From the NCBI GenBank assembly GCA_900316025.1, contig ONBJ01000010.1, forward strand, positions 1 through 35,030: 35,030 bases of DNA, written 5' to 3'. Shown one piece after another: positions 10,989-29,899 of this stretch (position 1 is the first letter of the stretch; each line of letters starts with the position of its first letter). A program made the translations under genes and the position numbers. This stretch comes from an uncultured Eubacteriales bacterium (GTDB lineage: Bacteria; Bacillota; Clostridia; Oscillospirales; Acutalibacteraceae). The notes beneath the pieces were generated by a model. It was not told the DNA's origin and did not search any database. It saw nothing but the letters and a program-made list of their open reading frames with translations.

Positions 10989-11082
10989 CGGGCGATTGCA
11001 TTTAACGGCATTGCTGCCGTTAGTTTCAAGGCTATGCCTTGAAACAGGCAAAAGCGGCTGCTTTTGCCTATGCAATCGCCCG
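10989..11082. repeat. Family A four-way-junction repeat, copy A1
   Basis: The terminal 12-bp inverted repeat CGGGCGATTGCA/TGCAATCGCCCG encloses three hairpins. H1 is TAACGGCA/TGCCGTTA (11003-11022), H2 is GTTTCAAGGC/GCCTTGAAAC (11023-11045, loop TAT) and H3 is AGGCAAAAGC/GCTTTTGCCT (11046-11069). The hairpins are directly adjacent, leaving two unpaired bases on one side and one on the other. There is no T-tract, so it is not a simple terminator. Confidence 0.93.
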
Positions 11083-11280
11083 TTTCAGCGAAGAACAGAC
11101 TTTGTGCGGATATTTACAAGATATTGTGCCTGAACCGCAGTTTTTCCGCAATTTCGGGTATTCAGCCGAAATTTAAAAATGTTTATAAATTTTTCGTAAA
11201 ACGTATTGTTGAAAATATATAAAAAGCTTTCATTAAATTGTTGATAATCAGTGAAATTTTGTTTCTTTGACAAAAATGTA

Positions 11281-11309
11281 TTGCAAGATGTGTACATATA
11301 GGATATAAT
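11281..11309 (+). promoter_or_regulatory. Promoter of the EF-G-like gene
   Basis: TTGCAA (11281-11286) and TATAAT (11304-11309) are separated by 17 nt, about 80 nt before the start codon. Confidence 0.75.
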
Positions 11310-11389
11310 ATCACTGACATAATTTAACTTATTTATATATAATGCTAAGCTATGTAACACAGAGGAAATAAGGAGTTGTGCATTGTAAA

Positions 11390-13453
11390 ATGAAACAATA
11401 CGAGGCAAAGAAAATAAAGAATATAGTTCTGGCAGGTCACGGCGGCTGTGGAAAAACGTCTGTTGCCGAAGCTATGATGTATCTTGCAGGTGCAAGCGAA
11501 AGACTGGGCAAGGTCGATGACGGAAACACCGTTCTTGATTTTGACCCTGAGGAAATAAAAAGGAAGGTATCGGTATCATCGGCAGTAGCACCTGTAGAGT
11601 GGAAGGGATATAAAATAAATCTTATAGACACACCGGGTCTTTTTGACTTTGAAAGCGGAGTTTGCGAAGGTATGAGAGCCGCAGATACGGCATTGATAAT
11701 TGTATCGGGAAAGGACAGCGTAAACGTAGGAACGGACAAGGCTGTAAAGATGGCAAATGAAGCAGGAATGTCCAAGGTGTTTTTCGTAAACGGACTTTGC
11801 GATGAAAGTGCAAGATTTTACAGAGTATTTGAAACACTCAAGGCACATTACGGACCTTCGGTTTGTCCTGTGGTTGTACCGTATATAGAAAACGGTCAGG
11901 CAAACTGCTATGTAAATATTCTGGAATACAAGGCATACAGATATGAAAACGGAAAGGTTTCGCAGACAGCTATGCCCGATATGGGTGACAGACTTGAGGG
12001 TCTTCGTACCGCAATATATGAGGCTGTAGCCGAAACCGATGAAGAAATGTTTGAAAAATACTTCAGCGGAGAGGAATTTACTCCTGAAGAGGTTATAGTC
12101 GGAGTAAGCCGTGGCGTAAGAGAGGGAACGATTACACCTGTATTCTGCGGAGATGCTCAGAATACCTATGGAATAGAGCATCTGCTCAACGGAATAAACT
12201 GGCTTGTACCGTCAGCAGACGAGAAAAAGGAGATAGCAACAGATATAAACGGAGACCCCGTTGAACTTTCTGTAAATGTAAACGGAGCGGCTGCGGCTAT
12301 AGTTTTCAAGACTGTTGCAGACCCGTTTGTAGGAAAACTCTCGTACTTTAAGGTTGTATCGGGAAAGATAGCTCCTGATACTCCGCTTATAAATATGCGT
12401 ACAGGAGAAACCGAAAGAATAAACAAGGTTCTTATTCCCAGAGGAAAGAAGCAGGAGGAAGCAGCTTTCATAGGTGCAGGCGATATAGGAGCTGTGGCAA
12501 AGCTCAACAATACGGCTACAGGAGATACTCTTTGTGCACCTACAAGAAAAGTTGTTCTTGACGGAATAAAATATCCTGTAGCAAACTATAAAATGGCAAT
12601 TCTCCCCAAGACGAAGGGTGAAGAAGATAAGGTAGCACAGGCTGTAATGAAGCTTGCAGAGGAAGATCCTACAATCGTATTTGAAACAAACAAGGAAACA
12701 AAAGAAATGGTTCTCAGCGGTCTGGGAGAGCAGCATCTTGATGTTATTGTTTCAAAGCTTAAGAATAAATTCAATGTAGATGTAATACTCGATGCACCGA
12801 AGGTTGCATACCGTGAAACAATCCGCAGCAGTGTAAAGGTTCAGGGAAAGCACAAGAAGCAGTCAGGCGGTCACGGACAGTTCGGAGATGTATGGATTGA
12901 GTTCGAGCCTGCGGATAATGACGGTCTTGAGTTTGCGGAGAGAGTTGTAGGAGGAGCAGTTCCCAAGGGCTTTTTCCCGGCTGTAGAAAAAGGTCTGAGA
13001 GAGAGTATCAAAAAAGGAACGCTTGCAGGCTATCCTATGGTTGGCGTTAAGGCAACACTTTATGATGGTTCTTATCACCCTGTAGATTCATCTGAAATGT
13101 CGTTCAAGATGGCAGCTTCAATAGCTTATAAGAACGGCATACCCAAAGCAAGTCCTATACTTCTTGAGCCTGTTATGTCCGTATCCGTTACTGTACCCGA
13201 CAGCAATATGGGCGATATTATGGGAGAGATAAACAAACGCAGAGGAAGAGTTCTCGGAATGAATCCCGGTGAGGATAATATGCAGATTGTAGAAGCTGAA
13301 GCACCTGTATCGGAAATGAGTGATTTTTCTGTATACCTCAGACAGGTTACTCAGGGAAGAGGCAGTTATGTTACTGCTTTTGCAAGATATGAGCCTGTGC
13401 CTGAGCATATTGCAGCAAAGATTGTGGAAGAAAGAAAAAGTGAGGACAAATAA
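11390..13453 (+). CDS. EF-G-like translational GTPase paralog
   Basis: The 687-residue protein has the EF-G domain order: GTPase, beta barrel, and domains III, IV and V. The P-loop is GHGGCGKTS (16-24) and G3 is DTPG (80-83). SGLGEQHLDVIVSKL opens domain III, and GGHGQFGDVW and GRGSYV lie in domains IV and V. It belongs to the second EF-G group of Clostridia rather than being the ribosomal-operon fusA; its role is uncertain (translocation variant or ribosome rescue). The G4 guanine-specificity motif NKxD reads NGLC (134-137), an unusual loss. GTG 11378 is an alternative start, but AAGGAG is only 2 nt before it; ATG 11390 gives the family start. It is monocistronic, with a promoter and terminator. 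Confidence 0.92.
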   Translation: MKQYEAKKIKNIVLAGHGGCGKTSVAEAMMYLAGASERLGKVDDGNTVLDFDPEEIKRKVSVSSAVAPVEWKGYKINLIDTPGLFDFESGVCEGMRAADTALIIVSGKDSVNVGTDKAVKMANEAGMSKVFFVNGLCDESARFYRVFETLKAHYGPSVCPVVVPYIENGQANCYVNILEYKAYRYENGKVSQTAMPDMGDRLEGLRTAIYEAVAETDEEMFEKYFSGEEFTPEEVIVGVSRGVREGTITPVFCGDAQNTYGIEHLLNGINWLVPSADEKKEIATDINGDPVELSVNVNGAAAAIVFKTVADPFVGKLSYFKVVSGKIAPDTPLINMRTGETERINKVLIPRGKKQEEAAFIGAGDIGAVAKLNNTATGDTLCAPTRKVVLDGIKYPVANYKMAILPKTKGEEDKVAQAVMKLAEEDPTIVFETNKETKEMVLSGLGEQHLDVIVSKLKNKFNVDVILDAPKVAYRETIRSSVKVQGKHKKQSGGHGQFGDVWIEFEPADNDGLEFAERVVGGAVPKGFFPAVEKGLRESIKKGTLAGYPMVGVKATLYDGSYHPVDSSEMSFKMAASIAYKNGIPKASPILLEPVMSVSVTVPDSNMGDIMGEINKRRGRVLGMNPGEDNMQIVEAEAPVSEMSDFSVYLRQVTQGRGSYVTAFARYEPVPEHIAAKIVEERKSEDK

Positions 13454-13506
13454 AAAAAGCTTTTGTTTGTACGCACTTTTCGGAGTTTTGATGTGATTTT
13501 GTGATA

Positions 13507-13557
13507 ATAGCTTGAGTACATTTTCAGGTCTGTACTCAAGCTATATTGCTTTTTTTA
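13507..13557 (+). terminator. Rho-independent terminator of the EF-G-like gene
   Basis: ATAGCTTGAGTACA pairs perfectly over 14 bp with TGTACTCAAGCTAT around a 10-nt loop, followed by TTGCTTTTTTT. Confidence 0.88.
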
Positions 13558-13587
13558 AGATAAAGCAGGTAGGATTTATACTCAGGT

Positions 13588-13687
13588 CAGGCGATTGCAG
13601 CCATCAAAAGCTACGCTTTTGATAACTTTAAAGGGTAAACCTTTAAAGTTCCTTGCGGATTTATCCGCAAGGGGCTGCAATCGCCTG
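13588..13687. repeat. Family A four-way-junction repeat, copy A2
   Basis: The terminal 13-bp repeat CAGGCGATTGCAG/CTGCAATCGCCTG encloses H1 ATCAAAAGC/GCTTTTGAT (13603-13623), H2 AACTTTAAAGG/CCTTTAAAGTT (13624-13650) and H3 CCTTGCGGA/TCCGCAAGG (13651-13672). Only two unpaired bases lie on each side. A further outer pair CTCAGGT (13581-13587)/ACCTGAG (13700-13706) flanks it. The element lies between a terminator and the next gene. Confidence 0.93.
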
Positions 13688-13743
13688 TTGAAGCAGAAAA
13701 CCTGAGGTTTTAAGCGTAGCAGGGAGAGGGGAAGGTATAGTTT

Positions 13744-14526
13744 GTGAAGATTGCTTTATATCAGATGAATATAAGCTTTGAGGATAAGGAAGGTAATTTC
13801 GGGAAGGTATGCAGGGCGGCTGAAAAAGCTGCATATGAAGGAGCAGATGTTCTTTTTCTGCCTGAGATGAGCTTTACGGGATTTTCTATGAATACGGAGC
13901 TTACAGCAGAATCTGATAATTCAAGTATGAGCTTTGTAAGAAATCTGTGCGTAAGATTTGGAATTTCGACAGGCTGTGGCTGGGTGCGAAAATCGGAAAA
14001 TAAGGCGGAGAACTGCTACAGCGTTATTGACAGAAACGGACGTGAGCTTAATACATATGTAAAAATGCACCCTTTTTCATATTCGGAAGAGAACAGGTAT
14101 TTTTCAGAAGGAAGTAGCATAGCCTTTTATGCGGTAGAAAATATCGGATTTTCCACTGCCATATGCTATGATATGAGATTTCCGGAGCTTTTTTCAGGCA
14201 TATGCCGTGACGGAAAAGTAAAAGCGGTAGTCATACCTGCCAACTGGCCAGCGGAGAGGTCGGAGCATTGGAAAGTACTTACAAGAGCGAGAGCGATAGA
14301 AAATCAGATATATATATTTGCCGTAAACTGCGTAGGGGAGATGAATGGTCTGTACTATTCGGGAAATTCCTGCGTAATAGCTCCTGACGGAGAAATTATT
14401 GTATGTTCCGATGACAGGGAAGAGCTGATTTTCGCTGAAACTGATTTCAGTTATGCGGACAGATTAAGGAAAAGCTTTCCCGTAAAAAATGACAGGCGTA
14501 CAGAACTGTACAAAAGTTTTCTGTAA
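13744..14526 (+). CDS. Carbon-nitrogen hydrolase (nitrilase superfamily amidase)
   Basis: This 260-residue enzyme has the Glu-Lys-Cys catalytic triad in its usual contexts: FLPEMSFTGF (E41), VKMHPFSYSEE (K107) and TAICYDMRFPEL (C141). The MHPFSY and RFPEL neighbourhoods match the omega-amidase/YafV-like branch, which hydrolyses alpha-ketoglutaramate or ketosuccinamate; the exact substrate is inferred. The start is GTG 13744 with a GGGGAAGG site 7 nt upstream, giving MKIALYQMNISFED. The gene stands alone between A2 and the glgB promoter; no promoter of its own was recognised. Confidence 0.9.
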   Translation: MKIALYQMNISFEDKEGNFGKVCRAAEKAAYEGADVLFLPEMSFTGFSMNTELTAESDNSSMSFVRNLCVRFGISTGCGWVRKSENKAENCYSVIDRNGRELNTYVKMHPFSYSEENRYFSEGSSIAFYAVENIGFSTAICYDMRFPELFSGICRDGKVKAVVIPANWPAERSEHWKVLTRARAIENQIYIFAVNCVGEMNGLYYSGNSCVIAPDGEIIVCSDDREELIFAETDFSYADRLRKSFPVKNDRRTELYKSFL

Positions 14527-14673
14527 AATTATTGACTGCTCGGATAACAGAAAAAATGTTTGGGTATCAGTATTAATGTTGGAAAAATCTATGAAAAAAG
14601 AAGAATTGTGTTGTAAAATGTATAAATATTTTCGTGAGTATTTTTAAATATCTTATAAATTTTTACTAATCTA

Positions 14674-14702
14674 TTGAAATTTGCTTTCAGCATTGTTATT
14701 AT
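14674..14702 (+). promoter_or_regulatory. Promoter of glgB
   Basis: TTGAAA (14674-14679) and TATTAT (14697-14702) are 17 nt apart, about 65 nt before the chosen glgB start. Confidence 0.65.
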
Positions 14703-14767
14703 ATTAATGTTAGAGTAGTATGAGAAATTACAGGTATGTGACAAGACTGAAGAAAGGAATTTTCACT

Positions 14768-16873
14768 ATGGGATATGTAACGGACGACAGACAGTATCAG
14801 CAGGAATTCTGTTCGGGCGACAGCTGCAGCAGTTATGAATATCTGGGTGTACACAAAGCAGATGACGGAAGCTGTTATGTGTTCAGGGTATGGGCACCGT
14901 CCGCACTGTCTGTATCGGTTGTAGGAGCATTCAACAACTGGGACGAAAATGCCAACCGTATGTCACGCATTGGCAGCGGAAATATATGGGAGTGTTATAT
15001 AAACGGATTAAATGAGTTCGATGCCTACAAGTACTGCATTGTTGCGGAAAATTATGAAAGACTGTATAAATCTGACCCTTACGGATTTCACTTTGAAACA
15101 AGACCGCAGAATGCAAGTCTGATATATGATATTGAGGGCTTTGCTTGGAGTGATGAAGCATGGCTCAGTAAAAGAAAAAATACTGACTATAAACAGTCAC
15201 CGATGAATATATATGAGATACATGCAGGCTCATGGAAAAGATATGAGGACGGAAATCCTCTTAACTATCGTGAGCTGGCAGATGAGCTTGTACCGTATGT
15301 AAAGGAAATGGGTTATACGCATATAGAGCTTATGCCCATAATGGAGTATCCGTTTGACGGCTCGTGGGGTTATCAGACAACAGGTTATTATGCACCTACT
15401 TCAAGATACGGACAGCCTAAGGATTTTATGTATTTTATAAATTTATGCCATCAGAACAGAATAGGAGTAATACTGGACTGGTCGATAACGCAGTTTCCGA
15501 AGGACAGCTATGGACTTGAAAAGTTTGACGGAAGCTGCTGCTATGAATATAAAGACCCCAGAAAAGCAAACCGTAACGATAAGGATACTTTGACATTCGA
15601 TTATTCAAAAAATGAGGTTATAAGCTTTCTTATGTCGAGTGCCGCATTCTGGGCAGACAAGTATCATGCGGACGGAATAAGAATTGACAATGTTGCGGCT
15701 ATGCTTTATCTCGACTACAGCAGAGAGGGCGAGGAGTCGGCGACCAACAAGTTCGGAGGAAAGGAAAACCTCGAAGCAGTTGCATTTGTTCAGAAGCTGA
15801 ATGTAAATATGCACAGGTTATTTCCCAGCCTCATTACGTTTGCAGAGGAGTCGACAGCGTGGCCTATGATTACAAAGCCTGTGGAGCAGGGCGGACTTGG
15901 TTTTGACTTCAAATGGAATATGGGCTGGATGAATGATATGCTGCAATATATGTCTACCGACCCTTTTTACCGCCCCTTCAATCATTCCAGCGTTATATTC
16001 TCATTCTTCTATGCTTTTTCGGAAAGCTTTGTTCTTCCTATTGCACACGATGTTGTTGTATACGGAAAGAAATCCCTTTTCAGCAAGATGCCTGGAGATT
16101 TCAGAAGCAAGTTTGACCATGTGAGAATATTTATGGCATATATGATGATGCACCCCGGCAAGAAGCTTACGTTTATGGGTACAGAGCTTGCTCAGGCTGA
16201 AGAATGGAATACAGACGGAGAGCTTCCGTGGGAGGTTCTTTCCTATGCCGCAAACAGAAAGCTTCATAATTTTATAAAAAGCCTTAACAGATTTTACAAC
16301 GAAAACCCTGCAATGTACGAAACTGAGGATTCGTGGGAGGGCTTTCACTGGATACACCACGATGATTTTACACAGTGCGTACTTGCGTTCAGACGGCTTG
16401 GCAAGGACGGCGACGGTATAATAACCGTATGCAACTTTCTTCCTGTAAAGCGTGAAAATTACAGCATAGGTGTTCCGTATAAGGGAGTGTATACGGAGGT
16501 TTTCAATACAGATGACGTAGAGTTCGGAGGAAACGGCATATCAAATGTAAGTGATATAGTTTCCGAGGACGTTCCTATGCACGGCTATGAGCAGAGTATA
16601 GCTCTTACGATACCGCCGCTTTCTGTTATGTATCTGAAGTGCAAATTCAGAAAGACTGACGATGATGCAAAAAGCGTTGACCTTGAGGACGAAGAAACCA
16701 TAGAGGAAATCAAGGAGCTGAGCGAAAAAATAGCTGAGCTTGAGGAAATGGAAAATTCCGAAGCCGTAAAAGGCGGGGATACCTCAGAAAAGGAAAAAGA
16801 GAAAGAGCCTGAGCAATCGGAAGAAGCTGAAGCAGAAAAGAAAGTCAGCGGTAAATCTATGACTGAGGATTAA
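14768..16873 (+). CDS. glgB: 1,4-alpha-glucan branching enzyme with acidic C-terminal tail
   Basis: GlgB cuts alpha-1,4 chains and rejoins them as alpha-1,6 branches in glycogen. An N-terminal CBM48-like domain (about 25-115, FRVWAPSALSVSVVGAFNNW) precedes the GH13 barrel. The nucleophile is D307 in IRIDNVAAMLYLDY, the acid/base lies in AEEST (about 360) and D428 is in HDVVVYGK, where the common form is HDEVVHGK. The last ~70 of 701 residues form a Glu/Lys-rich tail absent from typical GlgB. ATG 14768 is chosen because AAAGGA lies 9 nt upstream; an in-frame ATG at 14720 lacks a site. It leads the glg cluster, but A3 and a second promoter separate it from glgC. Confidence 0.95.
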   Translation: MGYVTDDRQYQQEFCSGDSCSSYEYLGVHKADDGSCYVFRVWAPSALSVSVVGAFNNWDENANRMSRIGSGNIWECYINGLNEFDAYKYCIVAENYERLYKSDPYGFHFETRPQNASLIYDIEGFAWSDEAWLSKRKNTDYKQSPMNIYEIHAGSWKRYEDGNPLNYRELADELVPYVKEMGYTHIELMPIMEYPFDGSWGYQTTGYYAPTSRYGQPKDFMYFINLCHQNRIGVILDWSITQFPKDSYGLEKFDGSCCYEYKDPRKANRNDKDTLTFDYSKNEVISFLMSSAAFWADKYHADGIRIDNVAAMLYLDYSREGEESATNKFGGKENLEAVAFVQKLNVNMHRLFPSLITFAEESTAWPMITKPVEQGGLGFDFKWNMGWMNDMLQYMSTDPFYRPFNHSSVIFSFFYAFSESFVLPIAHDVVVYGKKSLFSKMPGDFRSKFDHVRIFMAYMMMHPGKKLTFMGTELAQAEEWNTDGELPWEVLSYAANRKLHNFIKSLNRFYNENPAMYETEDSWEGFHWIHHDDFTQCVLAFRRLGKDGDGIITVCNFLPVKRENYSIGVPYKGVYTEVFNTDDVEFGGNGISNVSDIVSEDVPMHGYEQSIALTIPPLSVMYLKCKFRKTDDDAKSVDLEDEETIEEIKELSEKIAELEEMENSEAVKGGDTSEKEKEKEPEQSEEAEAEKKVSGKSMTED

Positions 16874-17060
16874 TTTGGTAAGTCGGTTTATCTCTTGGAA
16901 AACAAGAGTAAATATATATGCCTGAATTCCGTAAAACACACAGAAGAAGCTTTTCAAAAAAACAGGCGTTGCTGAATTTTACGGAGGTTTGGCGAAAAAT
17001 TTCTGTTTCGTAATCTCCACGGTCTAAGTCGGGTTACAGCCCGTCTGACGGCTTCAGTCA

Positions 17061-17160
17061 GGCGATTGCAGTACGCTCACTTAACGTGAGCGTATGCCGT
17101 AAGGGCGTAGCCCTTACGTGACGGTCATAAAAAAATTTTTTTATGACCGCTGCAATCGCC
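17061..17160. repeat. Family A four-way-junction repeat, copy A3
   Basis: The terminal 11-bp repeat GGCGATTGCAG/CTGCAATCGCC encloses H1 TACGCTCAC/GTGAGCGTA (17072-17094), H2 CGTAAGGGC/GCCCTTACG (17098-17118, loop GTA) and H3, a 28-bp perfect palindrome at 17122-17149 (CGGTCATA... with a central A7T7). H1 and H3 abut the outer stem with no unpaired base. It lies between glgB and glgC. Confidence 0.93.
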
Positions 17161-17171
17161 GCAACTTTGGA

Positions 17172-17201
17172 TTGAGCGTAACAGGCAGAAAACAATATAA
17201 A
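17172..17201 (+). promoter_or_regulatory. Possible promoter of glgCDA
   Basis: TTGAGC (17172-17177) and TATAAA (17196-17201) are 18 nt apart, directly after element A3 and 39 nt before the glgC start. Confidence 0.5.
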
Positions 17202-17240
17202 TTTTCGGAAAAGAAGATATATAAAGGAGGAAAAAACATA

Positions 17241-18467
17241 ATGTATCCAAAGCAAACTACAGTAGCGATGATACTGGCAGGAGGACAGGGAAGCAGACTG
17301 GGAGTACTTACCAGAAAGCTGGCAAAGCCTGCAGTACCCTTCGGAGGAAAGTACAGGATTATAGACTTTCCGCTTTCAAACTGTGTAAATTCTGGAATAG
17401 GAGCAGTAGGTGTACTTACTCAGTATCAGCCGCTGGTTCTCAACGAGTATATAGGAAACGGACAGCCCTGGGATCTGGACGGTACTTATGACGGAGTAAC
17501 CTGTTTAAGTCCGTATCAGCAGATGGACGGTGCATACTGGTATTCGGGAACGGCAAATGCTATCTACAGAAATATGAACTTTATCGAAAGATACAATCCT
17601 GAATATGTTGTTGTTCTTTCGGGAGATCATATTTACAAAATGGATTATGCAAAGATGATTTCGGCACACAAGCAAAACAAGGCAGCCTGTACAATAGCAG
17701 TAATAGACGTGCCGCTTGAAGAAGCATCAAGGTTTGGAATACTCAATACAAACCCCGATGGTTCAATATACGAATTTGAGGAGAAGCCTGCAAATCCCAA
17801 GAGTACAAACGCTTCAATGGGAATATACGTATTCAGTTGGGGTAAGCTGAGAAAATATCTTGAAGCAGATGCGGCAGACCCCTCTTCAAGCAACGACTTC
17901 GGTAAGGACGTTCTGCCTGCAATGCTCAACGCAGGAGAGAGAATGTTTGCTTATCAGTTTGAAGGCTACTGGAAGGACGTAGGAACAATAGACAGCCTCT
18001 GGGAAGCAAATATGGATTTGCTCAATCCGAAAGTTCCGCTTGACCTCAGCGGCGAAAAGGACAAGATATATTCGAGAAATCCCTCAATGCACCCTCAGTA
18101 TATAGGTGAAAATGCTAATATACAGAATTCGCTTGTTTCGGACGGCTGCGAGGTAGACGGAAATATAGAATTTTCGGTACTGTTCCCCGGAGTAACAATA
18201 GGAACGGGAGCAACCGTAACGGATTCCATACTTATGCCGGGAGCAGTTGTTGAGGAAGGAGCTACGGTTGAATATGCCATAGTTTCGGAAAACGCTGTTA
18301 TAAAGAAAAGAGCTCACGTAGGAGCAAGACCCGAAAACTACAAGAAAGACGATCAGTGGGGTATTGCGGTAATAGGAGAGGGTGTTACTATAGCTGAGAG
18401 CTGTAATGTAGCTCCCAAGGCTATGGTTGATACCGATGTTGTGGAGGTGACAGACAATGAGGAATAA
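17241..18467 (+). CDS. glgC: Glucose-1-phosphate adenylyltransferase, catalytic subunit
   Basis: GlgC makes ADP-glucose from ATP and glucose-1-phosphate, the committed step of glycogen synthesis. The nucleotide-binding loop [12 protein letters not shown] (13-24), [15 protein letters not shown] (29-43), the substrate loop [14 protein letters not shown] and EEKPANPKS are intact. A left-handed beta-helix with hexapeptide repeats forms the C-terminus. It has 408 residues and ATG 17241 follows AAAGGAGG by 9 nt. It overlaps glgD by 11 nt, so the two subunits are probably translated together, as in the GlgC/GlgD heterotetramers of Firmicutes. Confidence 0.97.
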
Positions 18468-21062: not shown

Positions 21063-21114
21063 TTTCCAAATGAGCGGTCGGAATGATTTTCTTATTGTAT
21101 AGCTATGACAATTA

Positions 21115-21198
21115 AAAGTTTTGTCCACTTTTTCAAAAGTGGTGGGGTCAAGGGGCAAAGCCACTTGTGGGATTTTTAAGGGCGAAGCCCTTAAACTC
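21115..21198 (+). repeat. Family B triple-hairpin repeat, copy B3 (divergent arms)
   Basis: Same layout, flanks (AAAGTTT, TTAAACTC) and linker (GTGGGATTT) as the other B copies, but H1 is CCACTTTT/AAAAGTGG and H2 is CAAGGGGC/GCCACTTG with one mismatch. H3 is TTTAAGGGC/GCCCTTAAA. Both H1 arms changed together compared with B1, B2 and B4. Confidence 0.85.
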
Positions 21199-21264
21199 AT
21201 CAACTATTTTATTTTCAACCGCTCAGTTAGAATAATTTTTTAAAATTCGGATATGACAGTATAA

Positions 21265-22970: not shown

Positions 22971-22994
22971 TAAGTCGTAAAGGGGGATTTTTTT

Positions 22995-23792
22995 ATGAAT
23001 AACAGCGGAAATGACAATCAGTTCAATAATTACTACGGCGGCTCAGGCTCGGACAATAATTACGGTCAGCCTAATTTCTCGTCGGGACAGGGATTTGACC
23101 CTAATTCACAGAATTATTCGGACGGAAACTATTCCGGCGGCTTTAATCCGAACCAGCAGTATCAGGACAACAGCTTTAACAAGGACGCAAACAGTTACGG
23201 AAACTATAACAGCTTCAATAACGGATACAACAACGGCGGCGGTTATAATAACGGAAGCTACTATAACAATCAGCCTGCTTCGGGTTCATTTGACAACGAC
23301 CCCAATCAGGGAAAGGCTGTAGCAGCTTCGGTTACAGGTAGAATAGGATTTTCGCTTGCAATACTCGGAATTGTAATTTTTTGGGGTTTAAGCTGCGTTG
23401 ATAGCAGAGTGGTAATTGATTGGGGTGCTGATCCAGTGAATTTAACACTAGGCTATATTACATCTGCTGTAATGACGGTAGCAGGCTTTATAACCAGCAT
23501 AGTAGGAGTTGTTTTAGGAGCTTCTTATAAAAAAATTTCCAATCAGATGGGTATTGTAAACGACAGCAACAGGTCAAAAAACAATGTCGGATTTGTGCTT
23601 GCCATAATTGGTCTTGTGTTCTCGTCACTTTCGATACTTTCGTGTGTTGCCTGTGTAGGCTGTACAGCCTGTTTTGTAAATTCTGTTGCTAACAAGGCAG
23701 ACATATACAGTGATTACAGCAGATATTTTACCTCTGTATCAGAGAGTGCTGAAAGCATAGAAGGTTTGTATCCTGAATATTTTTCATTTTAA
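22995..23792 (+). CDS. Membrane protein with Asn/Gly/Tyr/Ser-rich N-terminus
   Basis: Residues 1-105 of 265 are almost entirely Asn, Gly, Tyr, Ser, Gln, Asp and Phe, without exact repeats, like a prion-like or phase-separating segment. Three hydrophobic segments follow (about 116-136, 150-178 and 198-228). The last contains several Cys (SCVACVGCTACF). A short hydrophilic tail ends in YPEYFSF. This design (disordered Asn/Gln/Gly tail plus a DUF4190-like membrane region) is common in Firmicutes, but its function is unknown. It has a consensus promoter, an AAGGGGG ribosome site and a strong terminator, so it is probably an abundant single-gene transcript. Confidence 0.85.
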   Translation: MNNSGNDNQFNNYYGGSGSDNNYGQPNFSSGQGFDPNSQNYSDGNYSGGFNPNQQYQDNSFNKDANSYGNYNSFNNGYNNGGGYNNGSYYNNQPASGSFDNDPNQGKAVAASVTGRIGFSLAILGIVIFWGLSCVDSRVVIDWGADPVNLTLGYITSAVMTVAGFITSIVGVVLGASYKKISNQMGIVNDSNRSKNNVGFVLAIIGLVFSSLSILSCVACVGCTACFVNSVANKADIYSDYSRYFTSVSESAESIEGLYPEYFSF

Positions 23793-23815
23793 TCTGAATA
23801 AAAGCGAAGTTTTGG

Positions 23816-23844
23816 GGGCAGTGTAGGGTTACACTGCCCTTTTT
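23816..23844 (+). terminator. Rho-independent terminator
   Basis: GGGCAGTGTA pairs perfectly with TACACTGCCC around loop GGGT, followed by TTTTT. It lies 24 nt after the stop of the low-complexity protein. Confidence 0.92.
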
Positions 23845-23876
23845 GAATTTAAAAGGTCTAAGGAGGTTGCAGTACA

Positions 23877-24692
23877 TTGTTCAGTACAGCGGATACACTT
23901 GGAATGGAATTTCCTTTTTACGGTTTGGCAACTGCGGCAGGAATATTTTTCGCATTTCTTCTGCTGCGTTTCACATCTGAAAAAAGAGAAGGAACGGACG
24001 CTCTGGAATATATTTTTATAGCTGTATGCGGAGGAATAGGGGCATTTATTACGGCACATATTTTTTACGCACTGGCACAGTACAAAAAGGTTGCTTTTAT
24101 TATAGGACATACGGACAGGCTTTTTTCAAGCTTCAGAATGTTCTGCTTATATATGATTGACATATTCGGGGGTATGGTTTTTTACGGCGGACTTATAGGT
24201 GCGTGTATAGGAGCATATATCTATATGAGAAGAGCTAAGCTTGATGTCGGGGCATATGCTGATACGATAGCTCCGTGCATACCGCTTTTTCACGCATTCG
24301 GCAGGGTCGGCTGTTTTCTTGTCGGCTGCTGCTACGGAATAGAAAGCAGCTTTGGTGTAGTATATCACAATGCAGCGGCGGAGTCTGCAAACGGAGTGTG
24401 CAGACTGCCTATACAGCTTTTTGAGGCAGGCGAAAATCTCATAATCTGTTTAGTTCTTACACTGATTTTATACAGGTGCAGAAATATTGAAAAAGGTATA
24501 TTGATATGGATTTACGGATTGATTTATCCTGTTGTAAGGTTTATAAACGAATTTTTCAGGGGAGATACAGAAGAAAGAGGATATTTCGGAGCTTTGTCAA
24601 CATCTCAGTGGATTAGTATTTTTATATTTGTGCTATCTGTTTTTATGGTAACGAAAATTATTTTGAAAAGAAAAAGGAGCGATATGCTTTGA
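23877..24692 (+). CDS. lgt: Prolipoprotein diacylglyceryl transferase
   Basis: Lgt attaches diacylglycerol from phosphatidylglycerol to the lipobox Cys of prelipoproteins in the membrane. The 271-residue protein has about seven hydrophobic segments and the Lgt signature HAFGRVGCFLVGCCYG (139-154), including the essential Arg143. GGMVFYGGLIGA and the late ...YPVVRFINEFFRGD segment are also typical. The start is TTG 23877, 10 nt after AGGAGG. Its stop overlaps the next gene's start by 4 nt. The terminator at 23816 lies just before it, so a promoter should sit in the ~30 nt between, but none is obvious; read-through is possible. Confidence 0.95.
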   Translation: MFSTADTLGMEFPFYGLATAAGIFFAFLLLRFTSEKREGTDALEYIFIAVCGGIGAFITAHIFYALAQYKKVAFIIGHTDRLFSSFRMFCLYMIDIFGGMVFYGGLIGACIGAYIYMRRAKLDVGAYADTIAPCIPLFHAFGRVGCFLVGCCYGIESSFGVVYHNAAAESANGVCRLPIQLFEAGENLIICLVLTLILYRCRNIEKGILIWIYGLIYPVVRFINEFFRGDTEERGYFGALSTSQWISIFIFVLSVFMVTKIILKRKRSDML

Positions 24693-25480
24693 AGTTCGGA
24701 ATTTCAACGGCATGCTTTTATCCCGAGGATTTGCTTAAATCCATTGAGAGGCTGACGGCTGAAAATGTGTGCTGTATGGAGATTTTTGTAAATACTATAG
24801 GAGAGGTTACAAAGGAATTTGCCAAAGAGGTAAATTCTGTGACATCATCGGGTATAAAAATAACATCTGTACACCCTTTTACATCGGGATACGAGCATAT
24901 TCTGCTTTTTTCAGACTATTACAGAAGATTTGAGGAAAGCATAGACTTTTATAAAAGATACAGCGAGTTTGCCTGCCGTGTGGGAGCGGATATAGTTGTA
25001 CTTCACGGTGACAAACGCTTTGAGGGAAGCGGAGGAATTTCCGACTTTGAATACTTTGAGAGATACTATAAGCTTAGAGAGGCTATGAAAAGAGAGGGTG
25101 CTGTACTTGCTCAGGAAAATGTAAATCTTTTCAGAAGCCAGAGTCCCGAATTTATAGAAAAAATGATAAAGTATCTTGGAAATGATGTCGATTTCGTTTT
25201 CGATATAAAACAGGCGGTGCGTTCAAAAAACAATCCGTTTGATGTGTGCAGGGCGATGGGTAACAGAATTGCCCATATGCACATAAATGATAATGACGGT
25301 TATAATGACTGTCTGTTGCCGGGAAAAGGAACTATGGATTATGAAAAAATTTTAGGTATGATGCGTAGTCAGGGGTACGGCGGTAATGCTGTCATAGAGG
25401 TATACAGAAGAAATTTTTCTGATATGGAAGATATTGTTCAGTCATACCGTATGCTTAACAGAAATTTCGGTAATCTGTAA
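24689..25480 (+). CDS. TIM-barrel sugar-phosphate isomerase/epimerase-like protein
   Basis: This 263-residue protein belongs to the AP endonuclease 2 / xylose-isomerase-like TIM-barrel superfamily. Metal-ligand positions are visible: VVLHGD (His), LAQENV (Glu), FVFDIKQ (Asp), AHMHIND (His) and AVIEVYR (Glu). The reaction is unknown: isomerase, epimerase or dehydratase are all possible. The start is TTG 24689, inside the end of lgt with a 4-nt overlap and preceded by AAAAGGAG, so expression is coupled to lgt. No functional link with lipoprotein maturation is known to me. Confidence 0.85.
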   Translation: MKFGISTACFYPEDLLKSIERLTAENVCCMEIFVNTIGEVTKEFAKEVNSVTSSGIKITSVHPFTSGYEHILLFSDYYRRFEESIDFYKRYSEFACRVGADIVVLHGDKRFEGSGGISDFEYFERYYKLREAMKREGAVLAQENVNLFRSQSPEFIEKMIKYLGNDVDFVFDIKQAVRSKNNPFDVCRAMGNRIAHMHINDNDGYNDCLLPGKGTMDYEKILGMMRSQGYGGNAVIEVYRRNFSDMEDIVQSYRMLNRNFGNL

Positions 25481-25497
25481 TTAATTTTTATTTATTA

Positions 25498-25526
25498 TTG
25501 AAATTATATTGTGAATATGTTATAAT
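25498..25526 (+). promoter_or_regulatory. Promoter of nrdR
   Basis: TTGAAA (25498-25503) and TATAAT (25521-25526) are separated by 17 nt, 38 nt before the nrdR ATG. No NrdR box is evident there. Confidence 0.8.
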
Positions 25527-25563
25527 ACTTGAAGTACGAGTGTGTTGCTAAGGAGGTTTTCAG

Positions 25564-26019
25564 ATGAAATGTCCCTATTGTGGTTGTGTTGAAAGCAAGG
25601 TTGTGGATTCACGCTCTGCAGATGACGGAGAAAGAATAAGACGCAGACGTGAATGTCTGCGGTGCGGAAAACGTTTCACGACTTATGAAATGGTGGAAAG
25701 CTTTCCGCTTATGGTAATCAAGCGTGATGAATCACGTGAACCATTCGACAGGGAAAAGCTGCGTTCGGGAATTATGAGAGCCTGTGAAAAACGTCCCGTT
25801 TCGATGGGAATGATTGATAAAATAGTGGATTCCATAGAGAGAAAGCTCCAGAACTCCTTTGACAGAGAGGTTACATCAAACGTCATAGGAGAGTATGCTA
25901 TGGAAATGCTCAGGGAAACAGATGAAGTCGCTTATGTACGCTTTGCCTCGGTTTACCGCCAGTTCAAGGATATAAACACTTTTATGGACGAACTCAACAA
26001 GCTTATAAATGCAAAATAG
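25564..26019 (+). CDS. nrdR: Transcriptional repressor NrdR
   Basis: NrdR represses ribonucleotide reductase genes in response to ATP/dATP. The 151-residue protein has the family's zinc ribbon (C3, C6, C31, C34 in CPYC and CLRC), the basic stretch RIRRRREC, and an ATP-cone domain from about 48 ([20 protein letters not shown]) to about 140 ([15 protein letters not shown]). The length matches the family. ATG 25564 follows AAGGAGG by 7 nt. No nrd gene is present in the window, so it acts on distant targets. It is monocistronic and followed by family A element A4. Confidence 0.97.
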
Positions 26020-26040
26020 AGATATATATTAAGGGGAGGG

Positions 26041-26136
26041 GCGATTGCAGACGTCAAAATACTTTGTATTTTGACAAGATTGAAGTGCATGGCACTTCAA
26101 TCCGCCGCAGATTAATCTGCGGCGGTCTGCAATCGC
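26041..26136. repeat. Family A four-way-junction repeat, copy A4
   Basis: The terminal 11-bp repeat GCGATTGCAGA/TCTGCAATCGC encloses H1 GTCAAAATAC/GTATTTTGAC (26053-26075), H2 GATTGAAGTGC/GCACTTCAATC (26078-26102) and H3, a 24-bp perfect palindrome at 26102-26125 (CCGCCGCAGATT and its complement). H3 abuts the outer stem directly. Confidence 0.93.
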
Positions 26137-26183
26137 AACGCTGACGAAAATCTGACACTATAAGGCAAATTTGGCAATAAAAA

Positions 26184-26212
26184 TTGACATTAATCCGCAC
26201 AGGTGGTATATT
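26184..26212 (+). promoter_or_regulatory. Promoter of the asd-dap operon
   Basis: Consensus TTGACA (26184-26189) and TATATT (26207-26212) are 17 nt apart, giving a leader of about 120 nt before asd. Confidence 0.82.
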
Positions 26213-26287
26213 ATATAGCGAGGTTGTATAAAAGTCCGTTTTGCAGTCTGCGTAAAGGTATCCTGCACGCAGATGTGCTGTGTATTA

Positions 26288-26299
26288 CGGGCGATTGCA
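26288..26299 (+). repeat. Orphan family A terminal arm
   Basis: CGGGCGATTGCA is identical to the left arm of A1, but no partner arm or three-hairpin set follows. It lies in the asd leader, 42 nt before the start codon. Confidence 0.6.
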
Positions 26300-26340
26300 A
26301 TTCAAATATTCATATGTGTTATATGTAGGAGGACTTCATT

Positions 26341-27420
26341 ATGAAAAAATACAAAGTAGGTATCATCGGAGCAACAGGAATGGTAGGACAGAGATTTTCA
26401 CTTCTGCTTGAAAATCACCCTTGGTTTGAGGTTGTTGTTCTTGCAGCAAGCAAGCGTTCAGCAGGAAAAACCTACAGGGAAGCAGTAGGCAAAAAGTGGG
26501 CTATGACATCAGACATTCCTGAAAAGTTCGCTGATATGGTAGTTATGGACGCTTCCGAGGTAGAAAAGGTAGCGGCACTCGTAGACTTTGTATTCTGTGC
26601 GGTAGATATGAAAAAGGACGAGATAAAGGCACTTGAAGAAGCGTATGCAAAGGCAGAGTGTCCTGTAATGTCAAACAACAGTGCAAACAGACACACACCG
26701 GACGTACCTATGATTATACCTGAGATAAATGCCGACCATGCGGCTATTATACCTGCCCAGAAGAAGCGTCTTGGAACAAAGAAGGGCTTTATAGCAGTAA
26801 AATCGAACTGTTCTTTGCAGAGCTATGTACCTGCCGTACACCCTCTTATGGATTTGGGAGTAAAAAAGATTCTTGCATGTACCTATCAGGCAATTTCGGG
26901 AGCAGGAAAGACGTTTGAAAGCTGGCCCGAAATGATAGATAACGTTATACCTTATATCGGAGGCGAAGAAGAGAAATCAGAGAAAGAGCCTCTCAAGATA
27001 TGGGGACATATAGAGGGCGATGTAATAAAGGATACGGAAGTACCTTCAATAACATCACAGTGCATAAGAGTGCCTGTAAGTAACGGTCACACAGCGGCTG
27101 TTTTTGTAGAGCTTGAGAAAAAGGCAACTATGGAAGAGATAATCTCAAGATGGGAAAACTACAAGGGCAGAGCACAGGAGCTTAATCTTCCCAGTGCACC
27201 CAAGCAGTTCTTACATTACTTCACAGAGCCTGACAGACCCCAGATAAAGAGCGAAAGAAATCTTGAAAACGGAATGGCAGTATCCATCGGCAGACTTAGA
27301 GAGGATACTCAGTATACAATAAAATTTGTGTGTATGTCACACAATACCCTCAGAGGTGCAGCAGGAGGAGCTGTACTTATGGCAGAACTTCTTTGTGCAG
27401 AGGGTTATCTTGATGACTAA
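26341..27420 (+). CDS. asd: Aspartate-semialdehyde dehydrogenase
   Basis: It reduces aspartyl phosphate to aspartate semialdehyde with NADPH, the branch point to lysine/diaminopimelate and threonine/methionine. The nucleotide-binding loop GIIGATGMVGQRF (7-19) and catalytic C157 (VKSNCSLQ) are present, followed by the SGAGKTF segment and SNGHTAAVFVE. The 359-residue length and sequence style match the archaeal/fungal-type ASADH rather than the E. coli type. ATG 26341 has AGGAGG 9 nt upstream. It is the first gene of an operon with dapA (24 nt), dapB and an ACT protein. Confidence 0.96.
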   Translation: MKKYKVGIIGATGMVGQRFSLLLENHPWFEVVVLAASKRSAGKTYREAVGKKWAMTSDIPEKFADMVVMDASEVEKVAALVDFVFCAVDMKKDEIKALEEAYAKAECPVMSNNSANRHTPDVPMIIPEINADHAAIIPAQKKRLGTKKGFIAVKSNCSLQSYVPAVHPLMDLGVKKILACTYQAISGAGKTFESWPEMIDNVIPYIGGEEEKSEKEPLKIWGHIEGDVIKDTEVPSITSQCIRVPVSNGHTAAVFVELEKKATMEEIISRWENYKGRAQELNLPSAPKQFLHYFTEPDRPQIKSERNLENGMAVSIGRLREDTQYTIKFVCMSHNTLRGAAGGAVLMAELLCAEGYLDD

Positions 27421-27444
27421 TCAGAACAACGGAGGTTATTAATT

Positions 27445-28344
27445 ATGAATAAGCCTGTATTTACCGGAAGTTGTGTAGCGATAGTTACGCCTATGAACTA
27501 CGACGGCTCCATAAACTATGAGGAATACGGCAAGCTGATTGATTTTCAGATAGAAAACGGAACAGATGCCATACTTGCCTGCGGAACAACGGGAGAGTCT
27601 GCGGTAATGGATCACAAGGAACATTGTGAAGTTATAGAATATACTTTAAAGAAAGTAGACAAGAGAGTTCCCGTTATTGCAGGAACAGGAAGCAACGATA
27701 CAGCATATGCAGTTGAGCTGACAAGGGAAGCAAAGAAATTAGGAGCAGATGCTGTTCTGTCGGTTACTCCCTACTACAATAAGACTTCACAGACAGGTCT
27801 TGTAAGGCATTTCAGCACTATAGCAAATGCAGTTGATATTCCTATGATTTTGTACAATGTTCCCAGCAGAACAGGTTGCTGTATAAAGCCCGAAACATAT
27901 GCCGAGCTTTGCAAAAATCCCAATATAGTTGCTACTAAGGAAGCAGGCGACAAGATAGGTGAGGCTGCAAAAACTATGGCTCTCTGCGGAGATAATCTTG
28001 ATGTTTATACAGGCTGCGACGATATGACAGTACCTGTTATGTCACTTGGCGGAAAGGGAGTTATTTCGGTATTCTCAAATGTTATGCCGAAGGAAATGCA
28101 CGAAATAGCAACGCTTTGTCTTGAAGGCAACTTCAAGAAGGCTGCTGAAATGCACCTTTATTATCTGGAACTTATGAACGCACTTTTCTGCGATGTAAAC
28201 CCTATTCCCGTAAAGGAAGCTATGAATATGATGGGCTTTAACTGCGGAGCTTGCAGACTGCCTCTTGTACCGCTCAGCGAAAAGTCATATGAATATCTCA
28301 AATCAGTTATGGTTAAGTACGGACTTTTTAAGGAAAAAATCTGA
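27445..28344 (+). CDS. dapA: 4-hydroxy-tetrahydrodipicolinate synthase
   Basis: DapA condenses pyruvate with aspartate semialdehyde, the first dedicated step to diaminopimelate and lysine. The 299-residue barrel has the Schiff-base Lys165 (VATKEA), Tyr137 (LYNVPSRTG) and the CGTTGES loop (47-53) that hold the catalytic triad, plus TPYYNK. ATG 27445 follows CGGAGG. Its substrate is the product of the preceding gene, asd. Confidence 0.97.
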   Translation: MNKPVFTGSCVAIVTPMNYDGSINYEEYGKLIDFQIENGTDAILACGTTGESAVMDHKEHCEVIEYTLKKVDKRVPVIAGTGSNDTAYAVELTREAKKLGADAVLSVTPYYNKTSQTGLVRHFSTIANAVDIPMILYNVPSRTGCCIKPETYAELCKNPNIVATKEAGDKIGEAAKTMALCGDNLDVYTGCDDMTVPVMSLGGKGVISVFSNVMPKEMHEIATLCLEGNFKKAAEMHLYYLELMNALFCDVNPIPVKEAMNMMGFNCGACRLPLVPLSEKSYEYLKSVMVKYGLFKEKI

Positions 28345-28388
28345 TATAAAAAAGGTTTGAAATTAACTTTTTCAGAAGTGAAATGTTT

Positions 28389-28420
28389 TCGGGCAATTTG
28401 CATTTATGCGAATTGCCCGA
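28389..28420 (+). promoter_or_regulatory. Hairpin just upstream of the dapB ribosome binding site
   Basis: TCGGGCAATT (28389-28398) pairs with AATTGCCCGA (28411-28420), with an inner GCA/TGC. The structure ends 3 nt before the GGAG of dapB. It has no T-tract, so it could be a translation-control or RNA-processing element. Confidence 0.6.
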
Positions 28421-28437
28421 TATAGGAGAATTTAAAA

Positions 28438-29193
28438 ATGACCAATATAATTTTAAGCGGCTGCTGCGGAAAAATGGGAAGAGTTATAGCAGAAGAGGTA
28501 AGCCTGAGAAACGACTGTGAAATTGTTGCAGGAGTGGATATTTTTTCCGACAGTTCACTGAACTTTCCGATATACAGCAGCTTCGATAACATCACTGAGG
28601 AGGCTGATGTTATAATAGATTTTTCCAATCCGTCTGCACTTGACGGATTGCTGAAATATGCAACAGGAAAGAGCGTTCCCGTTGTAATATGTACAACAGG
28701 ATTTTCGGCAGAGCAGGTATGTGCTATAAAGAAAGCAGCAGAAAATACAGCAGTATTTTACTCAGGAAATATGTCTTTGGGAATAAATCTTCTCATAGAG
28801 CTTGCAAAGAAAGCCGAAAAAGTACTCGGCAGAGCATTTGACGTTGAGATTATAGAAAAGCATCATAACAGAAAGCTTGATGCTCCCAGCGGTACGGCTA
28901 TGATGATAGCTGACGGAATATCTCAGGTTATGGAGCAGGAGCCGCAGTACGTATATGACAGACATTCATACAGAAAAAAAAGAGAGAAGAACGAAATAGG
29001 AATCCACGCAGTACGAGGAGGAACTATAGTAGGCGAGCATCAGGTTATATTTGCAGGTCACGATGAAGTTCTCACTCTTACTCATCAGGCACAGTCCAGA
29101 GAAGTTTTTGCAGTAGGTTCGATAAATGCGGCAGTATACCTCAAGGGTAAAACCTGCGGTATGTATGATATGTCCGATATGCTCAGTGAATAA
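28438..29193 (+). CDS. dapB: 4-hydroxy-tetrahydrodipicolinate reductase
   Basis: DapB reduces the DapA product to tetrahydrodipicolinate using NAD(P)H. The 251-residue protein shows the dinucleotide loop GCCGKMGRVIAEE (8-20), the VVICTTGFS segment, the SGNMSLGINLL segment and the family signature EKHHNRKLDAPSGTA (140-154) with the catalytic His/Lys. ATG 28438 has GGAG 10 nt upstream. It lies 93 nt after dapA, an unusually long gap that contains a strong hairpin, and 25 nt before the ACT gene. Confidence 0.97.
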   Translation: MTNIILSGCCGKMGRVIAEEVSLRNDCEIVAGVDIFSDSSLNFPIYSSFDNITEEADVIIDFSNPSALDGLLKYATGKSVPVVICTTGFSAEQVCAIKKAAENTAVFYSGNMSLGINLLIELAKKAEKVLGRAFDVEIIEKHHNRKLDAPSGTAMMIADGISQVMEQEPQYVYDRHSYRKKREKNEIGIHAVRGGTIVGEHQVIFAGHDEVLTLTHQAQSREVFAVGSINAAVYLKGKTCGMYDMSDMLSE

Positions 29194-29218
29194 TAGTTTA
29201 TTCGGAGGTCTTGATAAT

Positions 29219-29671
29219 ATGAGTGCAAATATAAGCGTTGCAGGCGATATAACACTTGTTACCCTGCATAATACTCCTGCTGATATGGAATTTATAGCTT
29301 CGGTTTTCGAGGAAATTTCCAAACTGAACATAGATGTTGATATGATTTCCCTTGCACCCGTTCAGGGAATTACAACGAGCGTTTCATTTACAATTTGCGA
29401 TGATGACCTTATGACTTTGCTAAGCTATACATCAAAGCTTAAAGATAAAAAGATAAAGCCCGTTATAAGCAGCGGAAATTCCATAATAAGTATTTCAGAT
29501 ACCGAAATGGAGAACAATCCGGGTGTAGCGGCAAAAATTTTCAGAGCTATAGCAGATTCAAAGTCTGATATAAGAATAGTAACAACATCACAAATTCAGG
29601 TATCGGTTCTTGTTACCGATGCTGTATTTGAACAGGCATACAATGCGTTGAGCGATTGTCTGAATTCATAA
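29219..29671 (+). CDS. Free-standing tandem ACT-domain protein (aspartokinase regulatory-like)
   Basis: The 150-residue protein looks like the C-terminal regulatory part of aspartokinase: GDITLVTLHNTPADMEFIAS...LNIDVDMIS (first ACT domain) and NNPGVAAKIFRAIADSKSDIRIVTTSQIQVSVLV (second). No kinase domain is attached. In Bacillus, the aspartokinase II beta subunit has this same make-up through internal translation; here it is a gene of its own. Last in the asd-dapA-dapB operon, it is a plausible lysine or threonine sensor for an aspartokinase encoded elsewhere. The start ATG 29219 has CGGAGG 9 nt upstream; an earlier in-frame ATG at 29126 lies inside dapB and is rejected. Confidence 0.88.
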   Translation: MSANISVAGDITLVTLHNTPADMEFIASVFEEISKLNIDVDMISLAPVQGITTSVSFTICDDDLMTLLSYTSKLKDKKIKPVISSGNSIISISDTEMENNPGVAAKIFRAIADSKSDIRIVTTSQIQVSVLVTDAVFEQAYNALSDCLNS

Positions 29672-29693
29672 AATTAAGATTAAGATTATGATA

Positions 29694-29744
29694 AGGGTAG
29701 TTTTGACCGTGTATGGTATCGGTTCAGAGCTGCCCTGTTTTTTT
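29694..29744 (+). terminator. Rho-independent terminator of the dap operon
   Basis: AGGGTAG and CTGCCCT pair with one wobble, with an inner GACCG/CGGTT stem, followed by GTTTTTTT. It lies 22 nt after the ACT gene. Confidence 0.82.
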
Positions 29745-29803
29745 ACAGATTAAATAATTAAGTAATGTAAATCTTTTCAGAAATTTGTGGCTATGCTCAG
29801 GCT

Positions 29804-29899
29804 GCGATTGCAGACGATAAAAAGCAAAGCTTTTTATCAGCTTTCAAGCGTAAACGCTTGAAGCTCACGGCAGCGAATGCTGCCGTGGTCTGCAATCGC
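29804..29899. repeat. Family A four-way-junction repeat, copy A5
   Basis: The terminal 11-bp repeat GCGATTGCAGA/TCTGCAATCGC encloses H1 GATAAAAAGC/GCTTTTTATC (29816-29838), H2 AGCTTTCAAGCG/CGCTTGAAGCT with one bulged T (29839-29865), and H3 CACGGCAGC/GCTGCCGTG (29866-29887). The three hairpins are directly adjacent, with one unpaired base on each side. Confidence 0.93.

Follow-up and report, generated by a model that had tools for sequence, protein, structure and literature searches.

The window analysed here, the whole stretch of 35,030 nucleotides, raises the question of how short repeats can keep a fold whose letters they do not keep. Five elements of three consecutive hairpins each had been described in it, with one bulged base in the second hairpin of the fifth. 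An architecture-only scan of the window returned four of them (10989-11082, 13588-13687, 17061-17160 and 26041-26136) and nothing else, and the same scan of three block-shuffled windows gave 0 elements. The fifth, A5, was missed by the scan setting (bulge in the second hairpin); it parses with wider junction gaps and then folds as described. The window contains the end sequence GCGATTGCA 11 times versus 0.33 expected, and ten of these mark the two ends of each of the five elements. The features are as follows, with orthologs given in the sister species G005:

A1, 10989..11082, no strand: outer stem of 13 bp (10989-11001 / 11070-11082); hairpins 11003-11022, 11023-11045 and 11046-11069; ortholog L133:1382
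A2, 13588..13687, no strand: outer stem of 15 bp (13588-13602 / 13673-13687); hairpins 13603-13623, 13624-13650 and 13651-13672; ortholog L133:3885
A3, 17061..17160, no strand: outer stem of 11 bp (17061-17071 / 17150-17160); hairpins 17072-17094, 17098-17118 and 17122-17149; ortholog L133:7309, with paired changes in hairpin 1
A4, 26041..26136, no strand: outer stem of 12 bp (26041-26052 / 26125-26136); hairpins 26053-26075, 26078-26102 and 26103-26124; ortholog L138:4640
A5, 29804..29899, no strand: outer stem of 12 bp (29804-29815 / 29888-29899); hairpins 29816-29838, 29839-29865 (one bulge) and 29866-29887; ortholog L138:8479, with a paired change in hairpin 1
Lone GCGATTGCA, 26291..26299, + strand: partnerless; absent at the corresponding place in G005

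The copies in the window sit singly after unrelated housekeeping genes. A4 follows an NrdR-like gene, starting 21 bp past its stop codon. By eye, a terminator-like hairpin precedes A2 at about 13510-13555. For the polyphosphate kinase gene, the predicted start at 29877 was set aside for one at about 29955, and A5 therefore need not overlap the gene. None of 4227 Rfam families reaches its gathering score in the window, and in locus L118 only sub-threshold microRNA models appear, at 16995-17073, outside the element at 17101-17196.

A fixed fold with variable arms

Of the 290 exact-end copies, 97 were examined, and every one is predicted to form an outer stem and exactly three hairpins, so that a four-way junction is the predicted fold of the element DNA. 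The hairpins are near-perfect, mostly with stems of 9-11 bp and loops of 3-4 nt, and the outer helix is formed by the terminal inverted repeat, which has a preferred sequence (GCGATTGCAG...). Some copies carry other versions of the end (GCGGCTGCA, GCGGTTGCA or GCGATTTCA), with both ends matched. Among 113 parsed copies, the perfect outer stem spans 9-33 bp and the length as cut 85-132 bp; the parse allows one mismatch per arm, which makes its mismatch count a lower bound. These 113 copies, on which the counts of gene context, T-runs, orientation and arm identity also rest, pool 97 exact-end and 16 fold-found copies, cover both species with orthologs counted twice, and include one fold-found copy (L054, TAAAGTTTAGG...) that is a member of another hairpin family.

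The arms are less free than first thought. The original prediction called the hairpin sequences unrelated and completely different, but half-arm identity between parsed copies of the source genome (G000) averages 41%, with nearest neighbours at 36% to 97%, subfamilies exist, and each arm position shows base preferences, e.g. AAAAGC in the AT-rich arm.

Pairing outlasts sequence. Of 4185 cells compared from copy to copy, 1393 are double changes and 11 reach another standard pair by a change on one side only. Covariation reaches 0.806 versus 0.170 after shuffling, with 98.5% of cells paired and both sides changing at 36 of the 42 pairs of the alignment, which was fitted to the structure model and in which most copies are entered on both strands. 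Together with the uniform fold and the compensated changes, this bears out the central part of the original prediction, a real family of fixed four-helix design, and points to a maintained structure in which the letters change but the pairs persist. Selection for structure and copying of one arm from the other are both compatible with these data.

Spread and orthologous sites

An absence of further copies, which had been named as a point against the family, was not found: the source genome holds 142 exact-end copies (0 genome-wide matches for the reversed control end pattern) and one sister species, G005 (rumen MAG RUG213), holds 148. This amounts to well over a hundred repeats per genome in two related rumen bacteria. 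Among the 398 genomes of the bacterial family searched, only one besides these two, G003, has a real exact-end copy; in G089, a single exact-end match shows no hairpins by eye over the 80 letters inspected. In loci classed as unrelated (464,641 bases), a structure scan gave 0 three-hairpin elements among the matches listed. End-pattern matches in wider taxa were regarded as mostly chance, about 116 being expected per 257 billion bases at equal base frequencies. The covariance-model searches of genomes are unsuited as negatives, as neither recovered the real copy in G003, and one had no positive control; a weak match of this kind (E 8.8e-5) was seen in G008. The IMG/VR contig L183 was rejected as a viral carrier and is read as host DNA, its three elements being letter-identical to L123, and the other two IMG/VR matches (L184, L185) show no three-hairpin fold.

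We compared 20 orthologous sites, in stretches mostly 80-95% identical between G000 and G005; in one pair (L120), the two sides were linked over a stretch that in G005 is about 2 kb longer. In G005, 16 sites hold exact-end elements, three hold elements with changed ends (one compensated, two one-sided) and one is reduced to half a terminal repeat. The “missing” copy at this 20th site is therefore a deletion, and none of the 20 gives a clean empty site when the two species are compared. The arms are 81% identical, the outer stem about 89% and the adjoining flanks 65-69%. The G005 arms at ortholog sites contain 552 pairs beside 3 mismatches.

It had been proposed that arm differences should not break pairing as often as they keep it, and the outcome depends on the way of counting. 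Counted outward from the loop in 19 of the 20 ortholog pairs, 119 pair-keeping double changes stand against 3 broken pairs, a count that is biased for pairing, with shifted registers inflating the double changes and 52 positions where stem lengths differ kept apart. Plain sequence alignment of 18 of the 20 pairs (minus 20 gap cells and one cell unpaired in G000), which is biased against pairing by shifted arms, yields 31 double changes that keep pairing, plus 3 changes to G-T, versus 18 one-sided and 14 double non-pairing changes. By this second count, non-pairing changes are as numerous as pair-keeping ones, which speaks against the proposal. Within this dependence on alignment, the orthologous sites agree with the comparison from copy to copy.

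Comparison with known repeat families

MITE families of the ERIC, RUP, Correia and YPAL type are defined by shared sequence, whereas here mainly the end sequence is common, while the arms vary but stay paired. According to the available text of PMC2229807, bacterial MITEs (ERIC, RUP, Correia/NEMIS, YPAL) are like our family in being about 100-200 bp long, intergenic and highly base-paired, and many have terminal inverted repeats, as in our copies. The elements are likewise short, end in inverted repeats and hold no gene. In the flanks inspected here, no target duplication was seen. The bcr1-bcr18 repeats of the Bacillus cereus group resemble the family as dispersed intergenic repeats, often in UTRs; bcr1-3 are MITE-like and bcr10 and bcr18 have conserved secondary structure, whereas the descriptions available from PMC3446304 do not mention any four-helix design whose arms are free.

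Besides, the family shares its extragenic position 3' of genes, and its rarity between divergent genes, with the REP/BIME group. REP and BIME elements lie 3' of genes and protect mRNA, and BIMEs are thought to act as 3' boundaries. The available part of PMC3733652 describes REP, BIME and REPIN sequences as palindromic and extragenic, like our elements. In contrast to these, the arms of our family are not conserved in sequence, so that a conserved palindromic unit is lacking at the mean half-arm identity given above. In addition, the REP-type Y1 (RAYT-type) transposase (PF01797) gave 0 matches in G000 and G005 while 5 of 14 control genomes match, and we rejected a REP/RAYT origin on the absence of this transposase.

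Certain small elements of adjacent hairpins have two hairpins, occur in organelle genomes and lack a closing outer stem. Such putatively mobile elements, cited in the available text of PMC7218506, are like the family in form. The Pae-1 and Efa-1 families consist of a stem-loop pair, versus three stem-loops closed by an outer helix here, and the available text on them (PMC2267715) contains no word beginning with “covari”.

Origin, upkeep and role

We tentatively favour a reading that could well be right, namely a MITE/BIME-like repeat from the ancestor of the two species whose pairing is kept at the DNA level and which now provides strand-symmetric 3' boundary hairpins. A gene-less miniature repeat would have multiplied in the ancestor shared by two rumen Clostridiales species, its copies moved by a trans-acting recombinase that recognises the terminal repeat, and would now be mostly fixed 3' of genes. 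Pairing would be policed at the DNA level, because G-T pairs, tolerable in RNA, are nearly absent like other mismatches. Whenever a strand is single, on the lagging strand or in a cruciform, the arms may fold; templated repair or template switching may then mend mismatched folds, and selection would remove copies whose fold is lost. At present, the hairpins may protect mRNA ends or bound neighbouring transcription units on either strand. Points against this reading are the missing Y1 transposase, the one type sought as a mobilising enzyme; the lack of a target duplication or a clean empty site at the places compared; the two one-sided end changes; the non-pairing changes counted by plain alignment; and a level of loop inversion no higher than chance.

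The position of the copies fits such a role and would also suit an element working only as RNA, the fold being selected in the transcript as a 3' UTR stabiliser or a processing or termination signal and DNA pairing being a by-product. We regard this as possible, if on the unlikely side. Of 80 codirectional copies, 68 lie at most 70 bp from the upstream stop codon, and 7 of 106 copies lie between divergent genes versus 38 of 227 gaps of at least 100 bp in the same loci (113 copies with self-made gene predictions; the comparison gaps include those that bear elements). The predicted RNA folds are very stable, and T-runs (five or more, within 70 nt) are commoner after the element than before it (32 versus 19 of 83). 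However, A-runs are as frequent after it (41 of 83, with 26 before). The arm order relative to transcription is 42:38 with 3 ties, i.e. either orientation occurs; palindromic arms fold alike on both strands, and the absent orientation bias is therefore no argument against an RNA-level function. Against it stand the base pairs: G-T makes up 12 of 3990 pairs (0.3%) in the 97 exact-end copies versus 304 of 2897 with shuffled interiors, far below the 11 of 91 in nine terminator-like hairpins and 5 of 63 in three tRNAs from the same or related loci. The scarcity of one-sided changes to another standard pair and the lack of an Rfam match in the window also speak against it.

It is unlikely, in our view, that the four-way DNA junction is itself the recognised feature, its shape being read, almost whatever the sequence of the arms, by some protein or by the repair machinery. 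If true, the genome would carry a sequence-free DNA-structure mark at some 150 places just after genes, with arms changing only in concert.

Quite unlikely is a purely mutational upkeep, in which an old, inactive and functionless MITE has arm copied onto arm by template switching or hairpin-directed repair. One-sided states are indeed nearly absent between copies, and arm homogenisation by template switching is documented in the available texts of PMC8604942 and PMC6649704. In contrast, the elements are more conserved than their adjoining flanks, an argument tempered by the statement in the available text of PMC8604942 that regions with short inverted repeats are better conserved than the sequence around them. 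Loop inversion, a mark of template switching, did not exceed chance (3 of 29 versus a permutation mean of 1.8; p 0.26; with 14 arms of unequal loop length and 2 with changed stems set aside), and we rejected spacer inversion as proof of this process. Lone ends, moreover, are few in the DNA examined.

A currently active MITE, with copies still moving and arm variety stemming from many founding sources, is very improbable. The burst is limited to a clade, orientation is random, a few copies have near-identical half-arms (up to 97%), and A3 is missing from the matching gap of G004 and G002, where the flanks are too diverged for a clean junction. On the other side, 19 of the 20 orthologous sites hold the element in both species and the 20th holds a remnant, and inspection by eye of the listed flanks showed no target duplication, although outer stems of varying length make the true ends uncertain. 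Integron attC sites conserve structure with free sequence and have extrahelical bases; that our elements are folded single-strand recombination sites of this kind is highly improbable despite the shared principle. The single copies after housekeeping genes in the window and the nearly perfect arms without extrahelical bases speak against it.

Searches for structured intergenic repeats usually rely on shared sequence, and free-arm families could therefore be missed; the present family came to light through its conserved ends. Numbering about 150 copies per genome in two species, it offers a natural experiment on the upkeep of near-perfect palindromes, in which selection on RNA, selection on DNA shape and templated arm-to-arm copying are the routes to separate, and the near-absent G-T pairs separate them more sharply than in ordinary structured RNAs.

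Architecture of the elements and their ends

RNA folding of all five family A elements, which lie in the window at the positions originally predicted, gave the fixed design claimed for them, with one outer stem closing three hairpins. One arm of A5 (29804-29899) is bulged as described, and this element was parsed once wider gaps were allowed. A script relying on architecture alone recovered four of the five elements and no other match in the window, and found zero elements in three shuffled windows. The end sequence GCGATTGCA was observed 11 times in the window versus 0.33 expected.

A genome-wide search with the exact-end pattern GCGATTGCA-N60-90-TGCAATCGC returned 142 copies in the source genome (2.08 Mb), where a reversed control pattern gave none, and 148 in the sister species G005. 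Exactly three hairpin loops were folded in 97/97 exact-end copies examined of these 290, and the three-hairpin fold was absent among the listed matches to the end pattern in unrelated loci (464,641 bases). Together with 16 copies identified by fold, one of them from another family, these 97 make up 113 parsed copies, in which stems of 9-11 bp and loops of 3-4 nt predominate and most junctions have a gap of 0. Mismatches number 10 versus 3350 pairs, with a parser that tolerates one mismatch per arm.

Some copies among the fold-scan matches listed carry other ends, matched on both sides (GCGGCTGCA, GCGGTTGCA, GCGATTTCA). Perfect outer stems reach 33 bp, and many flanks show CTGCGGCTACGCTCAGG-like extensions on one side or both. 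The majority of GCGATTGCAG decamers in the DNA examined lie within elements; distinct decamers outside exact-end pairs number three in the source genome and seven in G005, several being elements with one end changed.

Pairing is maintained while arm sequences change

In a covariation alignment of 102 matches fitted to a model, with most copies entered on both strands, 98.5% of cells are paired versus 64.5% after shuffling, and 36 of 42 alignment pairs change on both sides, in agreement with the original prediction. Double changes account for 1393 cells versus 11 with a one-sided change to another standard pair, and sliding the partner columns by one to three leaves 34-40% pairing. The arms had also been called unrelated, which has to be revised: base preferences at each arm position and the presence of subfamilies indicate that they are related and not arbitrary.

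The corresponding place in G005 was compared for 20 of 50 copies examined. Sixteen sites hold an exact-end element, three an element with changed ends and one only half a terminal repeat. Where the ends differ, the change is one-sided in two elements and compensated in the third, both of its ends reading GCGGTTGCA instead of GCGATTGCA. The site with half a repeat (L129:7436-7530 versus L162 of G005) is the sole loss and, because that half remains, the element decayed by deletion.

Whether arm changes between orthologs keep pairing, as expected originally, depends on the alignment method. Counted outward from the loops in 19 ortholog pairs, 119 double changes pair, three changes do not and one further change is from G-T, with 52 positions of unequal stem length; this count favours pairing since both folds are found first. 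Plain alignment of 18 ortholog pairs, which counts shifted arms as broken, gave 31 double changes still pairing and three one-sided changes to G-T versus 18 one-sided and 14 double changes that leave the position unpaired, half of these 14 coming from a single pair (L122). In G005, the orthologous arms comprise 552 pairs with three mismatches. At one site in the two species (L122:2566 and L061:1321), all three arms are replaced and the ends and design are kept. Identity between orthologs is 81% in the arms and about 89% in the outer 12 bp, versus 65-69% in the adjoining 40-bp flanks and 31% in unrelated flanks; therefore, the elements are under constraint at their sites.

G-T pairs make up 12/3990 (0.3%) in the elements versus 304/2897 with interiors shuffled, and 11/91 in nine terminator-like hairpins and 5/63 in three tRNAs, both small controls. 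A structure selected solely as RNA is expected to tolerate G-U, and mainly because of this scarcity we place the upkeep of pairing at the DNA level. The scarcity is compatible with selection on DNA shape and with templated correction alike and does not decide between them. Loop inversion, a direct mark of template switching, was not above chance in orthologous arms.

Distribution and origin

Among 40 genomes, the source genome included, exact-end copies occur beyond it in G005 (RUG213, a rumen metagenome assembly, records ONDU01, presumably of rumen origin judging by the isolate name) and once in G003; these two belong to the same genus. A search of 398 family genomes gave matches in four (G000, the source genome; G005; G003; G089), and the displayed letters of the G089 match lack hairpins. 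At the site orthologous to the G003 copy, the relative G002 has an element with a shortened outer stem, and a fold scan of G001 found none there. The four-helix design therefore predates the burst.

The single-lineage burst, the free orientation, the matched ends and the lack of A3 (17061-17160) in the corresponding gap of G004 and G002 point to a putative mobile-element past. Neither target duplication in the listed flanks nor a clean empty site between the sister species was seen, and the Y1 family transposase of REP elements is absent from both genomes. Three elements on L183, a contig filed as viral in IMG/VR, are letter-identical to those of L123 in the source genome; this contig is probably host DNA.

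No Rfam family matched the window. Within the parts of the open-access literature seen, subscription papers being mostly outside it, no bacterial repeat combines three variable hairpins with a conserved closing outer stem, which is no proof of novelty. The nearest relatives in kind are MITEs, ERIC and YPAL among them (PMC2229807), the Bacillus cereus bcr repeats (PMC3446304), REP/BIME elements, and the double-hairpin elements of mitochondria (cited in PMC7218506).

Other repeats in the window

480-590, 6215-6325, 21063-21203 and 34240-34330: second hairpin-rich intergenic family with adjacent hairpins (e.g. TTTAAGGGCGAAGCCCTTAAA), in which the folds examined show no closing stem like that of family A; the 21063-21203 copy has dozens of matches across G001, G002 and G003
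2503-2910: 42-bp tandem units, which encode a 14-residue protein repeat since they lie inside ORF 2416-3681
21-352 and 4604-4935: inverted 332-nt stretches, 79% complementary, 4.25 kb apart
34173-34224: palindrome without spacer, 26-nt arms 88% complementary

Genomic placement

Among the neighbouring genes in the window are those for elongation factor G-like, carbon-nitrogen hydrolase, branching-enzyme-like amylase, nucleotidyl transferase, NrdR-like, semialdehyde dehydrogenase and polyphosphate kinase proteins. Adjoining an element elsewhere, L118:16995-17073 gave weak, below-threshold microRNA-model scores on both strands, likely by chance.

Predicted genes exclude 110 of the 113 copies. A5 overlaps one only through a start predicted too long, the L120 copy has a 14-bp contact with a gene start, and the L039 copy lies entirely inside the first 100 bp of a predicted gene, counted from a putative start. 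In codirectional gaps, 68 of 80 copies start at most 70 bp past the upstream stop codon, and arm order is random with respect to transcription direction (42:38, three ties). Divergent-gene gaps hold 7 of 106 copies versus 38 of 227 among gaps of at least 100 bp. BIME-type repeats show the same placement after genes. Such a placement fits either a role at 3' boundaries or plain avoidance of promoters.
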